Of a DNA stretch of 33,917 nucleotides, positions 22,299 through 28,982 are shown piece after piece (the stretch's first letter is position 1; each line of letters begins with the position of its first letter). The position numbers and the translations under genes are program-made. Below the pieces are notes generated by a model. It made no database searches. It saw nothing but the letters and a program-made list of their open reading frames with translations, and was not told the origin of the DNA. Location of the stretch: contig CAJBTJ010000412.1 in NCBI GenBank assembly GCA_903958565.1, positions 1 to 33,917 of the forward strand, read 5' to 3'. The stretch comes from an uncultured beta proteobacterium. Lineage in GTDB: Bacteria > Pseudomonadota > Gammaproteobacteria > Burkholderiales > Burkholderiaceae_B.

Positions 22299-25200
22299 TT
22301 AAGCTGCTTTAGGCTGAGGGTTCGCCGCACGCCACATTTCACCGAGCGCGCGCTTGTAGTCGACAGGCATAACTTTGACAAACTTGGAACGAGCACTTTC
22401 CCAATTGCTAACCAGATCGCGCGCGCCGAAACTGCCTGTGTAGCGGAAGTGGTTTTCTACTAAACGTTTCAAAATTGCTTCATCGGTCTCACGATCACCG
22501 GCGCGAACCATGCTGTGCCAGACATCGATACCTTGCGCTTTCTGCTGTTCGCTCGAGGAGAGAACCGGCTCGATCTCGACCATTGTCATGTTGCAACGCT
22601 CGGCGAAGGTTTTTTCTGGATCCCACACGTAGGCCACACCCCCGGACATGCCGGCAGCAAAGTTACGGCCGGTTTGACCCAACACGACGACCGTACCCCC
22701 GGTCATGTATTCACAACCGTGGTCGCCCGTGCCTTCGACGACCGCCGCAGCGCCCGAGTTCCGCACGGCAAAGCGTTCGCCGGCGACACCGTTGAAATAG
22801 GCCTCGCCGGCCGTGGCGCCGTAGAGCACCGTGTTGCCGATGATGATGTGTTCGGGACCAAAGCCACGGAAATCGTTGGGCGAGCGAACAATGATTCGGC
22901 CACCTGACAAGCCTTTGCCAACATAGTCATTGCCTTCGCCCACCAGATCCAGTGTCACGCCTCGCACAAGGAAAGCGCCAAAGCTTTGTCCTGCGGTGCC
23001 GTTGCATTGAATATGAATCGTGTCATCTGGCAGGCCTTCATCTCCGTAACGTGAGGCGATGCGACCCGACAACATGGCGCCGATCGTGCGGTTACGGTTG
23101 CGGACTGGGACAATAAAGGAGACTTTTTCGCCACGCTCGATAGCAACTTTGCTGCGTTCAATCAGTTCGTGATCAAGGGCGGCTTCGAGGCCGTGATCCT
23201 GAACTTCAGTTTGACGGCGTGGGCTGTCGTTGCTTGGCTGATAGAACACGCGGCTGAAATCCAGACCGTGTGCTTTCCAGTGCTCGATACTTGTGCGTGT
23301 ATCGAGCAAGTCGACACGTCCCACGAGGTCGTCGAAATTGCGGATGCCCAACTGCGCCATGATTTCACGCACCTCCTCGGCGACGAAGAAGAAGTAGTTC
23401 ACGACATGTTCAGGCTTGCCTTGAAACTTTGCGCGTAGAACGGGGTCTTGCGTAGCCACCCCGACCGGGCAGGTGTTCAGATGGCATTTGCGCATCATGA
23501 TGCAACCTTCTACGACCAGCGGTGCGGTGGCGAAACCAAATTCGTCAGCGCCTAACAACGCACCGATTGCAACGTCGCGACCCGTTTTCATTTGACCGTC
23601 AGCCTGAACACGAATACGACTGCGCAACTGATTCAACATCAGTGTTTGCTGCGTTTCAGCCAAACCGAGTTCCCACGGTGTCCCAGCGTGCTTGATCGAA
23701 GAAACCGGCGAGGCACCGGTGCCACCATCGTGTCCAGAGATCGTGACGTGATCCGCTTTCGCTTTCGCAACGCCCGCGGCAACAGTACCTACGCCAACTT
23801 CGGAGACGAGCTTGACCGAAATCGATGCTTTGGCATTGACGTTTTTGAGGTCATGAATAAGCTGAGCCAAATCTTCGATCGAGTAGATGTCGTGATGAGG
23901 GGGAGGCGAAATCAGACCAACACCAGGGACTGAGCAGCGCAACTTGGCAATGTATTCAGACACCTTGTGACCAGGAAGCTGGCCGCCTTCACCAGGCTTG
24001 GCGCCCTGTGCCATCTTGATTTGAATCTGATCGGCGCTGGACAGGTATTCGGCACTGACACCAAAACGTCCCGAGGCAACCTGTTTGATTTTCGAGCGCA
24101 TGGAGTCGCCCGCTTGCAGGGGAACATCAGCAGCGATGCGATCAGCACCGAGCTCGGTGGCCAGCGTGGCGCCAGCGACAATACCGCTTTTTCCGGTACG
24201 CAACTCGTTACGATAACGCAGCTCATCTTCACCGCCTTCACCGGTGTTGGATTTGCCACCAATGCGGTTCATGGCAACTGCCAAGACAGAGTGAGCCTCG
24301 GTCGAGATCGAGCCTAATGACATCGCACCCGTTGCGAAACGCTTGACGATCTCTTTGGCGGGCTCGACTTCGTCTAGCGAAATTGCGCGAGCGGGATCCA
24401 CTTTGAATTCAAACAAACCGCGCAACGTCATGTGACGACGGCTTTGGTCGTTGATCAGCTGTGCGTACTCTTTGTAGGTGCGGTAGTTGTTTGAGCGCGT
24501 AGCGTGTTGCAATTTTGCGATGGAGTCTGGTGTCCACATGTGCTCTTCGCCGCGTACGCGGTAGGCATATTCGCCGCCCGTGTCAAGCGCATTGGCCAAG
24601 ACGGGATCGTTGCCAAACGCGGCGCGATGTGTGCGAAGAGCTTCTTCCGCGACCTCGAAGATCCCTATGCCTTCGATCGTGCTTGCCGTTCCAGAGAAGT
24701 ACTTGTTGACCAACGCGGTGCGCAAGCCAACGGCTTCAAAGATTTGGGCGCCGCAGTAAGACATGTAGGTCGAGATGCCCATCTTTGACATCACCTTGTT
24801 CAAGCCTTTGCCAATCGCCTTGACGTAATTCTTGATGGCTTTGTCTGCGTCTTTGCCCATGGAGGCGAGCGTTTCCAGTGCAAGGTAGGGATGGATGGCT
24901 TCGGCGCCGTAGCCACCGAGTAGGGCGAAGTGATGTACCTCACGCGCTGAGCCTGTTTCGACGACCAATCCAGTGTTGGTGCGCAAGCCTTCGCGAATCA
25001 GGTGCTGGTGAATGGCCGAAGTGGCCAGCAACGCGGGAATCGCGACGTGAGCGTTGTCGACGTTGCGATCAGTCAGAATCAATACGGTTGTACCGCTTTT
25101 CACGGCGTCGACAGCGCGTGCGCACAAGGCGGCAAGGCGTGCTTCGATACCGTCCGCACCCCATGCCGCGGGGTAGCTGATGTTCAGCTCTGAGCTGCGG

Positions 25201-27038
25201 AACTTGTCTCCTGTTACTTCAGAGATCGCACGAATACGCGCCATTTCTTTGAAGTCCAGAATGGGCTGTGTGACTTCAAGACGCAGAGGTGGATTGACGT
25301 TATTAATATCGAGCAGGTTTGGCTTGGGACCAATGAACGACACCAACGACATCACCATCTGTTCGCGAATAGGGTCGATTGGTGGATTGGTGACCTGTGC
25401 AAACAACTGTCGGAAGTAGTTGTAGAACGGTTTGGCGCGGCTCGACAAAATCGCGAGCGGCGCATCGTTGCCCATAGAGCCAATGGCTTCTTCGCCCGAT
25501 TCTGCCATGACTTCGAGCACGAACTTGTAGTCTTCCTGTGTCCAGCCAAAAGCCTGCTGACGATCGAGCAAGGATGTCGGTGCACCAATGGGCGCGTCAA
25601 GCTTTGCTGGGGAAGGTAATGAGTCGAGCTTGACACGCAGGCGGTCGATCCATTGCCGGTAGGGACGCGAGCTTGCCAACTGTGCTTTGATTTCAGCGTC
25701 GTCGATGATGCGACCTTGCTCAAGGTCGATCAAGAACATCTTGCCAGGTTGCAGACGCCATTTTTTGACGATACGGTTTTCAGGAATAGGGAGGGTGCCG
25801 GCTTCTGAGGCCATGATGACCATGTCATCATCGGTGATGAGGTAGCGCGCAGGGCGCAGTCCGTTACGGTCGAGCGTCGCGCCAATTTGGCGGCCATCGG
25901 TAAAGGCGACGGCTGCTGGGCCATCCCAAGGTTCCATCATCGCGGCGTGATATTCGTAAAACGCGCGGCGGCTAGGATCCATGTGTGTATGCTGCTCCCA
26001 AGCTTCCGGGATCATCATCATCATTGCGTGCGCGAGTGAGTAGCCGGACATGACAAGCAGCTCAAGGCAGTTGTCGAACGTCGCGGTGTCAGACTGACCT
26101 TCGTACACAATCGGGTAGAGCTTTTTGAGATCGTCGCCCAGCACAGCGGACTGCATCATGCCTTCGCGCGCGCGCAACCAATTGAAGTTACCTTTAACGG
26201 TATTGATCTCTCCGTTGTGCGCAATCATCCGGTACGGGTGTGCGAGTGGCCAAGCGGGGAAGGTGTTTGTTGAGAAGCGCTGATGGACGAGTGCGACCGC
26301 TGACACGGTGAGTGGATCGGCCAAATCGCGGTAGTAGCGACCGACTTGATCGGCGAGCAGCAAACCTTTGTAAACAACCGTACGCACCGATGCCGAAGGG
26401 ACGAAATACTCTTTGCCGTGCGCCAGACCCATCGCTTGAATTGCGTGGCTTGCTGTTTTGCGAATTACATAGAGTTTGCGTTCTAGTGCATCAGGCACCA
26501 TCACGTCGGCGCCACGACCGATAAATAGTTGACGAATCACGGGTTCACAGGCACGCACCGTGGGCGACATCGGCATGTCGGTGTCTACGGGCACATCACG
26601 CCAACCCAGTACGACTTGACCTTCAGCGCGCACTGAACGCTCGAGCTCTTGTTCGCATGCCAGACGCGAAGCGATTTCTTTTGGTAGAAACACCATGGCC
26701 ACGCCATACTCGCCAGGAGCGGGCAATGTGATGTTTTGTTTGGCTAGATCTTGCCGATAAAACGCATCGGGGATTTGGATCAGAATGCCTGCACCGTCAC
26801 CCATGAGTTTGTCCGCGCCCACTGCGCCCCGGTGATCCAGGTTTTCCAGAATTTTGAGGCCTTGCTCAACGATGGCGTGCGTCTTGTTCCCTTTGATGTG
26901 CGCCACAAAGCCCACGCCACAAGCGTCATGTTCGTTGGCGGGTGAGTACAGCCCTTGGGCGACAGGTAGTCCCGGTTGAGGGGCTGCTGCGGTGCGGGTG
27001 GTCTTGGTAGGGTGAAAACTCAAAGGGAACGTCGACAT
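22299..27038 (-). CDS. gltB: Glutamate synthase large subunit
   Basis: About 1,580 aa; [22 protein letters not shown] (Ntn glutaminase Cys), FMN and 3Fe-4S domain motifs ([25 protein letters not shown]). Start at [10 protein letters not shown] (27038) proposed instead of 27086. Confidence 0.97.
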
Positions 27039-27082: not shown

Positions 27083-27111
27083 ACAATACGCTTGGTTTTG
27101 TGGCAACGCAA
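27083..27111 (-). promoter_or_regulatory. Candidate sigma70 promoter for gltB
   Basis: Minus-strand TTGCGT (27106-27111), 17-bp spacer, TATTGT (27083-27088), 45 bp upstream of the proposed start codon at 27038. Confidence 0.4.
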
Positions 27112-27115
27112 GAAA

Positions 27116-27186
27116 ATTAATTGGGGTGCGTCCCTAATTAATAGCCCGACAGATTTGCCTTAATTTAATTGGGGACGCACCATTAA
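27116..27186. repeat. REP-like compound inverted repeat between gltB and the RAYT-like gene
   Basis: Arms GGTGCGTCCCTAATTAA (27125-27141) and TTAATTGGGGACGCACC (27165-27181), 17 bp with one mismatch. The left unit is itself palindromic: ATTAATTGGGG (27116-27126) tgcgt CCCTAATTAAT (27132-27142). Confidence 0.75.
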
Positions 27187-27194
27187 CATTGGCA

Positions 27195-27896
27195 TTAAGC
27201 CAGTGCGGATACCGTCTTTCTGGGTCGCCCACGTTTCTCGGGGCACACACGTCTGTTGGCAAGCTTGCTCAGCTCAGACAGGAAAGCGTCGTCGCCCAGA
27301 GCCCATTGCCCAGTTAAGCAGGCCTGGAGTTGAGCATTTTCCGCTGGGGGGTTGCCCTCTTGCAAGAGCCTTCGGTAGACCGCTTGTCGATCAAAAGGGG
27401 TGTTGCCGCAAGCCCAGTAGTCTGCGAGTGGTTGCAGACCGACTGCAGAGGCCCCTACGCTCCCTGTGTGGGCGCCTGCAGAAGACCAGCGCCAAGTGTC
27501 TGCCTCAGTGACCAGACCCTCTCTGACCGGTTGGCGTTCAAGCCAAATCAAGCAGGGTAAAAGCCAGCGTTGCGGCTGCGCAATGGTGGAGTGGAACCGT
27601 CCCTCGAAGACGCCGCCCGCGTGAAGCCGGCTTGCCAGAAGGCGTCCGACCTGTTGGATGCTGCGGGCGAGGCTGGTTTCGTCGCCGGGTGTTGCGAGCA
27701 AAGTTAGACTGCTAGGCGTGACAACCCATCCGTGTAGCAACGTGTCGGTATCAGCCAGTGCCAATCTAAGCCAGCGCCCAATATCTGCAAACTGCAGCGA
27801 GAAGGACTGGCGCACAACAGCGTCGGCGTGGTGTGTGAAGCGGGCTTGAGCGAGCTGAGCAAAACCCTCTGCATACAGTCGGGGCAGCCTGGCCAT
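27195..27896 (-). CDS. RAYT/Y1_Tnp (IS200-like, REP-associated) transposase-family protein, apparently catalytically degenerate
   Basis: Family scaffold MARLPRL..., LLATP, GGVFEGRFHSTI, LERQPVREGLV, WRWSSAGAH, WALGDDAFLSEL...NRRVCPEKRGRPRK. Real start is probably ATG at 27896 (the track start 27908 is TTG). Confidence 0.75.
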   Translation of the reverse strand: MARLPRLYAEGFAQLAQARFTHHADAVVRQSFSLQFADIGRWLRLALADTDTLLHGWVVTPSSLTLLATPGDETSLARSIQQVGRLLASRLHAGGVFEGRFHSTIAQPQRWLLPCLIWLERQPVREGLVTEADTWRWSSAGAHTGSVGASAVGLQPLADYWACGNTPFDRQAVYRRLLQEGNPPAENAQLQACLTGQWALGDDAFLSELSKLANRRVCPEKRGRPRKTVSALA

Positions 27897-27907: not shown

Positions 27908-27926
27908 AAGCCCTAAATCAGGGCTT
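27908..27926 (-). terminator. Short hairpin overlapping the stop of the YjiK-like gene
   Basis: AAGCCCT (27908-27914) / AGGGCTT (27920-27926) with a 5-nt loop; only a short T run follows on the minus strand. Confidence 0.35.
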
Positions 27927-28865
27927 CTTTAGCTTGTAGAAGAGATTGGGCTCACTGACGATGTAAATGTTGCCCTCATCATCAGTGGCGATTCCTTCGG
28001 GGCGCGGCAGAGGTTTATTGCCTTTTGTAGAAAGGGATAGCATGCCTTTGCCATCACCGCTGTCACCATCGAGCTGCACGATGAGCTGGGATTCTTCACT
28101 CAACAGGTAAACGCGGCCGGTGGTTGGATCGACCTCTACAGAGGAGAGGTCCGTCGCGAAGGGGACATCATTGAGCCAATGACTGATGTTTTCAATCCGC
28201 AGCCCTCGGGAGTCAGCCGCCTGTAGATTGTTCAGGCCACTAATGCGGTAAAGCGCGCGCGGACTGTGCTCTTTGGACAGGTACAGGCGATCGCGTTTGA
28301 GGTCATAACCCAACCCATTAAACCCATAGTTCGCATCGTCACCTTCGGTGAAACGCAAGACTAAGGCGAAAGCCCGGGTGACATCAAGCACTTGAGGGGT
28401 TGTGGGTACTTCCGCGATCACTACCCTATTGCGACGCCCGTTTACGAGCGCGATTTTATTCCCCCCAAGCCACGCGACACCATCGACGTCAGACATCCCT
28501 TTGACGGGGTAGGTCGCCAACACTTGGCCATCGGTTGAGAGCGCAATAAGCGCGGTGGGTTTATTGACAACAGTCCACAAGCGTTTTTGCAAAGGGTCGT
28601 AGGTCAGGCCGGAGAACTTGCCCCCGAGTTGCGTGTCAACCACTTGGGGCTCAGTTGGCCCCGCATAACCCGTTAGCGTGTTGCCGCCGGACTCAGCAAT
28701 CTTTTTCTCCCAGGCAGCTTGTTTGGCCGCGAGGCCTGAAATCCATCGGTAGGCCACCTGTTCAGCGTGGTAGTAGCGCACGCCGATGTAGGTTGCCCAG
28801 CCTACGCCAATGACGAGTAAGCAAGCCAGCAGGATCTTTGAAAGAAATTTGACTAAATCGGACAT
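27918..28865 (-). CDS. SdiA-regulated / YjiK-like beta-propeller protein with N-terminal membrane anchor
   Basis: N-terminal TM, then KFSGLTYDPLQKRLWTVVNKPTALIALSTDGQVLATYPVKGMSDVDGVAWLGGNKIALVNGRRNRVVI and PEGIATDDEGNIYIVSEPNLFYKLKK. Start at MSDLVKF (28865). Confidence 0.8.
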   Translation of the reverse strand: MSDLVKFLSKILLACLLVIGVGWATYIGVRYYHAEQVAYRWISGLAAKQAAWEKKIAESGGNTLTGYAGPTEPQVVDTQLGGKFSGLTYDPLQKRLWTVVNKPTALIALSTDGQVLATYPVKGMSDVDGVAWLGGNKIALVNGRRNRVVIAEVPTTPQVLDVTRAFALVLRFTEGDDANYGFNGLGYDLKRDRLYLSKEHSPRALYRISGLNNLQAADSRGLRIENISHWLNDVPFATDLSSVEVDPTTGRVYLLSEESQLIVQLDGDSGDGKGMLSLSTKGNKPLPRPEGIATDDEGNIYIVSEPNLFYKLKKP

Positions 28866-28982
28866 ACCCAAATCCAGGGACGGACGTTGCGGCTGGGATA
28901 GACGGCAGCCTTGCGCCCGGAGCATACCGAGATTAACACCCCCGCAAGAATTGCGGAACTTTTGCACAAATCGATCGTCTTA

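Follow-up and report, generated by a model that had tools for sequence, protein, structure and literature searches.

Why would a transposase gene that has lost its catalytic residues persist, full length, beside a central housekeeping gene? RAYTs have been called domesticated, yet how they benefit the host is an open question. We analyzed a window (here, the whole 33,917-nucleotide stretch of DNA) in which a RAYT-derived gene devoid of catalytic residues lies next to gltB, a gene of central nitrogen assimilation. The explanation we consider likely is that a former TIR-associated tyrosine transposase (TIRYT, PMC3733652) has been domesticated as a DNA-binding regulator of gltB, with the old terminal repeat as its operator and with catalysis dispensable; binding and the effect on gltB are inferred. 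To this reading the present work adds a feature absent from the first-pass annotation of the locus, a two-box element abutting the gltB promoter. We found no link between RAYTs and gltB in the open-licence literature searched.

A RAYT homologue without an active site lies upstream of gltB

The gene, its landmarks and its neighbors are arranged as follows.

27195..27896 (-): catalytically degraded RAYT/TIRYT homologue, 233 aa, with a conserved ATG at 27896-27894; coordinates and translation confirmed
27702..27710 (-): former HUH motif, now Ser-Leu-Thr (S63 L64 T65), from alignment with intact paralogues
27543..27545 (-): Trp118 codon at the position of the nucleophilic Tyr, from alignment with intact paralogues
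27249..27425 (-): conserved C-terminal domain (family pattern ADYWACGNTPFDRQ..YR ... QWALG), from family conservation; a DNA-binding role is proposed by inference
27216..27230 (-): basic GRPRK tail, from translation; AT-hook match below threshold
22299..27038 (-): gltB, large subunit of glutamate synthase, its start taken as the ATG at 27038
27918..28967 (-): upstream neighbor, SdiA-regulated (PF06977) protein, separated from the RAYT ATG by 21 bp

The first-pass annotation, made from sequence alone, had described a full-length ORF with a RAYT scaffold and a lost active site, and this description held in all but one detail. The ORF and its translation are correct, and MARLPRL, LLATP, FEGRF, QPVREGLV, WSS..AH, ALGD..F and GRPRK are all present. 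Alignment with intact paralogues, which carry MTNHVHLL, RYIELNPVR and RGNNRQ, confirmed that S63-L64-T65 (27710-27702) replaces both HUH His residues, that W118 (27545-27543) occupies the Tyr column, and that the RGNNRQ-type N-terminal segment is absent. The detail corrected is the SSLT reading at the former HUH motif, which is confined to the window's genus; most relatives have DRI(L/T). Trp at the former catalytic Tyr column is near-universal in the family.

Three criteria were applied for a functional RAYT/Y1 transposase, namely the HUH motif, the Tyr and a curated profile score, and the window protein meets none of them. The position of the Y---NP motif reads WLERQP, and the protein reaches 18.9 bits against NCBIfam REP_Tyr_transpos (NF047646), for which the cut-off is 80. 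There is no conserved HxH elsewhere in the ORF, the only invariant His residues across 46 family members being H55 and H143. A Pfam Y1_Tnp (PF01797) profile search with the window protein gave no match; among gltB-linked relatives, the intact ones are matched by Y1_Tnp and reach 69-84 bits with NF047646. Searches of Pfam, PHROGs and PDB sequences with the window protein returned nothing informative. Weak NCBIfam matches to OXA beta-lactamases were treated as chance.

Descent from RAYTs is nonetheless firm, given full-length homology and a shared fold. An hhalign comparison of the window family against an alignment of ten intact RAYTs, eight of them gltB-linked and two free, gave probability 100 and E=2e-52 over 219 columns, and the top Foldseek match of the AF2 model (mean pLDDT 74) was 4er8, a RAYT with its REP hairpin (E=3.5e-6). 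In their C-terminal part, 132 of 137 gltB-clade members carry a GNTPF-type signature, as against 0 of 7 free RAYTs. The C-terminal extension is conserved in the window family; an HTH profile search gave no match.

The placement beside gltB, which had been claimed to be fixed, also held: gltB lies directly downstream in 60 of 61 first-pass loci, and the same placement is widespread in Burkholderiales. These 61 relatives come from Bordetella, Achromobacter, Pigmentiphaga, Zwartia, Verticiella, similar genera and MAGs, and from the named ones we infer the window's family (f1), which we take to be Alcaligenaceae. The nearest named relative is Zwartia hollandica (L005). In two MAG records titled Bordetella parapertussis (L001, L003) the protein is 88-92% identical to that of the window, other Bordetella proteins being 45-49% identical, and these titles look wrong. 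On the upstream side, the PF06977 gene could possibly share a transcript with the RAYT gene.

The gene is under purifying selection and has probably lost its catalytic residues repeatedly

Within the window's family, 117 of 150 genomes carry the RAYT-derived gene, nearly always in one copy, the exceptions being some genomes with additional intact paralogues. Both His residues are absent from all 115 gltB-family rows of this family (several genomes are represented by more than one locus), and these rows contain no internal stops. Across 22 pairs, dN/dS was 0.01-0.23. The earlier claim of a selected, non-decaying ORF therefore held, dN/dS being far below 1 and orthologues being kept across the order. 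Two outcomes had been named as refuting the reading, an intact HxH and Tyr elsewhere in the ORF, or dN/dS near 1 without orthologues; both were examined and neither was found. One locus, L083, is the sole window-family member found with Tyr at the catalytic column, both of its His residues being gone.

Three other Burkholderiales families carry a homologue in 58/60, 59/61 and 45/59 genomes (162/180 together), usually one per genome, usually directly upstream of gltB and often with an intact catalytic triad. The genomes of the third family that lack the gene are small (0.2-2.8 Mb). Outside the window's family, HH+Y is kept in 55 of 95 gltB-adjacent rows and not in the other 40; these rows comprise loci from the three families plus an order-level sample, with a few genomes counted twice. 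The gltB-linked clade splits from free RAYTs at SH-aLRT 97, and the tree requires at least 15 changes in the state of the triad. This tree was built without the trait columns, and it was quick and has many weak forks, so the figure is only rough. Most of these changes should be losses, given how improbable it is that all three catalytic residues would be regained. An intermediate-looking active site occurs in L164 and L243-L248, which are gltB-linked and keep HUH and Tyr, with NA replacing NP after the Tyr.

A two-box element with fixed spacing abuts the putative gltB promoter

Between the RAYT-derived gene and gltB we identified three further features.

27172..27181 (-): distal operator-like box GGTGCGTCCC, from cross-genome comparison; no binding data
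27123..27134 (-): promoter-proximal box GGGACGCACCCC, a palindrome flanked by A/T, with a 37-bp spacer between it and the distal box
27083..27111 (-): putative gltB promoter TTGCGT-N17-TATTGT, assigned by eye with partial cross-species conservation, 11 bp after the proximal box

A sigma-70 consensus scan found no gltB promoter. A PWM, tested with each genus group left out in turn, detected the two-box element in 126 of 133 gltB upstreams from gene-positive genomes, and the spacer is exactly 37 bp in 110 of 127 element hits, above the 95th percentile of shuffles. Close relatives are among the sequences counted, notably ~70 of Bordetella/Achromobacter type; by group, at least one hit was obtained in 30 of 32 gene-positive groups, the exceptions being g12 and g31. 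The element was found in none of six ordinary gltB upstreams from gene-negative genomes, a set limited to two genera (g2, g42). Information content is 1.3-1.4 bits per column in the boxes, 0.58 in the spacer, where it mostly reflects A/T richness beside the boxes, and 0.3-0.4 outside; conservation of the element thus exceeds that of the sequence around it. Changes in the two boxes looked paired by eye, an impression on which no conclusion here rests. An Rfam search found no RNA element.

In six Pigmentiphaga-like loci (L007, L036, L046, L047, L050, L058), a TGCGTCCC box also lies immediately 5' of the RAYT ATG, an arrangement that might permit autoregulation.

Gene and element share a distribution, with exceptions

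Among the 150 genomes of the window's family, 115 have both gltB and the RAYT-derived gene, 24 have neither, 9 have only gltB and 2 have only the RAYT gene (Fisher p=3e-18). The test ignores kinship among genomes, and deletion of linked genes contributes to joint loss. Two of the nine gltB-only genomes carry a distant gltB (48% identity).

Adjacency is not universal. By our count, made by eye, ~30 of the 115 two-gene genomes have the RAYT gene somewhere other than immediately 5' of gltB, either on a different contig or at a distance of ~1 kb to tens of kb. The element usually remains at gltB despite the distant RAYT (L122-L124, L126-L129, L132, L134-L142, L144-L148). No clear two-box element was found in seven gene-positive cases (L012, L077, L125, L130, L131, L133, L143), of which the separated-gene loci are those of genus g12 (L125, L131, L133), L130 and L143. 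Conversely, the draft genome G012 has the element, and no RAYT gene was found there even with a closer query. In family f31 the RAYT is degraded and the boxes are diverged or unrecognised.

The boxes resemble terminal repeats of free RAYTs and are not part of a dispersed repeat family

Free intact RAYTs are flanked by GGGGTCAGA-type terminal repeats, which the gltB box resembles, and the box is similar to the consensus GGGGWSAS shared by TIRYT repeats (PMC3733652). In the outgroup families, which have intact RAYTs, CTGTCCC/CTGACCC half-sites lie 5' of gltB, mostly 48-50 bp apart, and the CCC half-sites in the window are separated by the same distance. In these families, 38 of 110 cases also have a GGGWCNG repeat, flanked by A/T, ahead of the RAYT start. 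The outgroup CTGWCCC boxes fit GGGGWSAS; in the window there is a variant, GGGACGCACC, and it lies to only one side of the gene. We dropped a simple inverted repeat as a description of the element, since the outgroup half-sites form direct repeats spaced by 48-50 bp; in the window's family, the palindromic proximal box is what makes the element look inverted.

In the window's own genome, a search for dispersed REP/TIR repeats placed GGGACGCACC at 7 places, compared with 11 for the reversed control. Among the listed genome-wide matches to the paired pattern, AT-rich ones occur solely at gltB, and the others are GC-rich and at or below the reversed-control level. These results give no indication of repeats dispersed like REPs, and we rejected such a family. 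The suggestion in the first-pass annotation of a DNA- or REP-binding role accordingly held only in part: the DNA-binding guess is strengthened by the co-distributed element, without binding data, and the REP part changes to TIR-type (GGGGWSAS-like) boxes rather than REP hairpins, with a likely role specifically at gltB. Palindromes of GGTGTCAGACACC type adjoin intact RAYT paralogues (L118, L119) and cluster between the dead RAYT and gltB in L008; they may be a live repeat family of the paralogue.

A model for the origin of a probable gltB regulator

These comparisons show that the protein is homologous to RAYTs, lacks their catalytic residues and is under purifying selection, and that synteny is conserved. 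They also show an element of fixed spacing that is nearly restricted to gltB and is co-distributed with the gene. The model we propose starts from an ancestor of several Burkholderiales families, in which a TIRYT (TnpAREP subclass 2.1) would have landed immediately 5' of gltB and its RAYT protein would have been kept as a DNA-binding regulator of gltB. The boxes, immediately upstream of the gltB -35 region, would descend from the terminal repeat of the element, and the protein would most likely bind both of them, perhaps as a dimer. Because the retained job was binding and not cleavage, we propose, HUH and Tyr disappeared from many lineages, among them every sampled member of the window's family; the ORF, the C-terminal domain and the boxes would have stayed while the catalytic residues went. 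Activation is slightly favored over repression, by inference, since the putative -35/-10 is preceded, not overlapped, by the boxes.

Binding, dimerization, the direction of regulation and the signal sensed are all inferred, as the evidence is comparative only and includes no binding or expression data. The RAYTs studied so far bind single-stranded hairpins in a strand-specific manner (PMC8266576), so binding to duplex DNA would be a changed activity. It is also possible that physical linkage accounts for part of the joint loss of the gene and gltB. A bolder reading, towards which we lean with less assurance, is that a Y1 transposase gave rise to a transcription-factor family spanning several Burkholderiales families, the terminal repeat having turned into a rigid two-box operator that serves a single housekeeping operon, and that catalysis was then lost repeatedly and independently.

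If that reading is true, the locus is a natural experiment that separates the host role of RAYTs from transposition chemistry. The locus brings together gltB as the proposed host target, a defined site and orthologues of both kinds, catalytic and dead, which makes that role directly testable.

Alternative explanations

The boxes could instead bind an unrelated transcription factor of gltB, the RAYT gene being a linked passenger selected for something else. The absence of binding data, the seven gene-positive upstreams without a clear element and the single gene-negative genome that carries one would suit this alternative. We nevertheless regard it as unlikely: the TIRs of free intact RAYTs and of TIRYTs are similar to the box, and the element, although missing from gene-negative genera, is usually still present in genomes whose gene has moved elsewhere. 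Less likely still is a structural role, in which gltB is merely a bystander and the protein binds hairpin or cruciform forms taken by the TIR-derived site while the DNA is replicated or supercoiled. The palindromic proximal box with its A/T-rich arms would fit such a role, as would the binding of RAYTs to folded single strands (PMC8266576) and a best structural match that is a RAYT with a REP hairpin. Against it, the near-exact spacing of the boxes, their proximity to the promoter and the joint loss of gltB and the gene point to control of gltB.

That the ORF is simply a decaying transposase, held in place only by linkage to gltB, is all but ruled out. The catalytic residues are indeed gone and Pfam Y1_Tnp no longer matches, but the dN/dS values indicate purifying selection on the ORF, gltB-family copies lack internal stops, and the gene is retained order-wide, mostly in single copy. 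The domesticated gltB regulator remains our preferred reading.

Relation to known systems

The closest published counterparts are the TIRYTs, which probably correspond to TnpAREP subclass 2.1 (PMC6006769), a subclass whose C-terminal extension resembles HTH motifs (PMC6006769). The window protein shares with them a RAYT core followed by a C-terminal extension, and the window's boxes resemble, in a variant form, their repeats with a GGGGWSAS-like core. It differs in having lost the HUH and Tyr that published members keep, and in that the repeat upstream of its gene is gone, the remaining repeat being the fixed two-box element at gltB. Members lacking HUH were excluded from an earlier survey as presumably non-functional (PMC6006769). 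The E. coli TnpAREP/RAYT (PDB 4er8) is the best structural match of the window model; unlike the window protein, which has no catalytic residues and whose genome has no repeat family, the E. coli protein is catalytic and binds single-stranded REP hairpins, with many REPs in its genome. A further parallel is TldR, nuclease-dead descendants of TnpB that act as repressors. In both cases a protein of an IS200/IS605-type element lost its nuclease residues and turned into a regulator of transcription, an outcome that for the window protein is inferred. TldR, however, is RNA-guided and derived from TnpB, whereas the window protein derives from the unrelated Y1 transposase TnpA.
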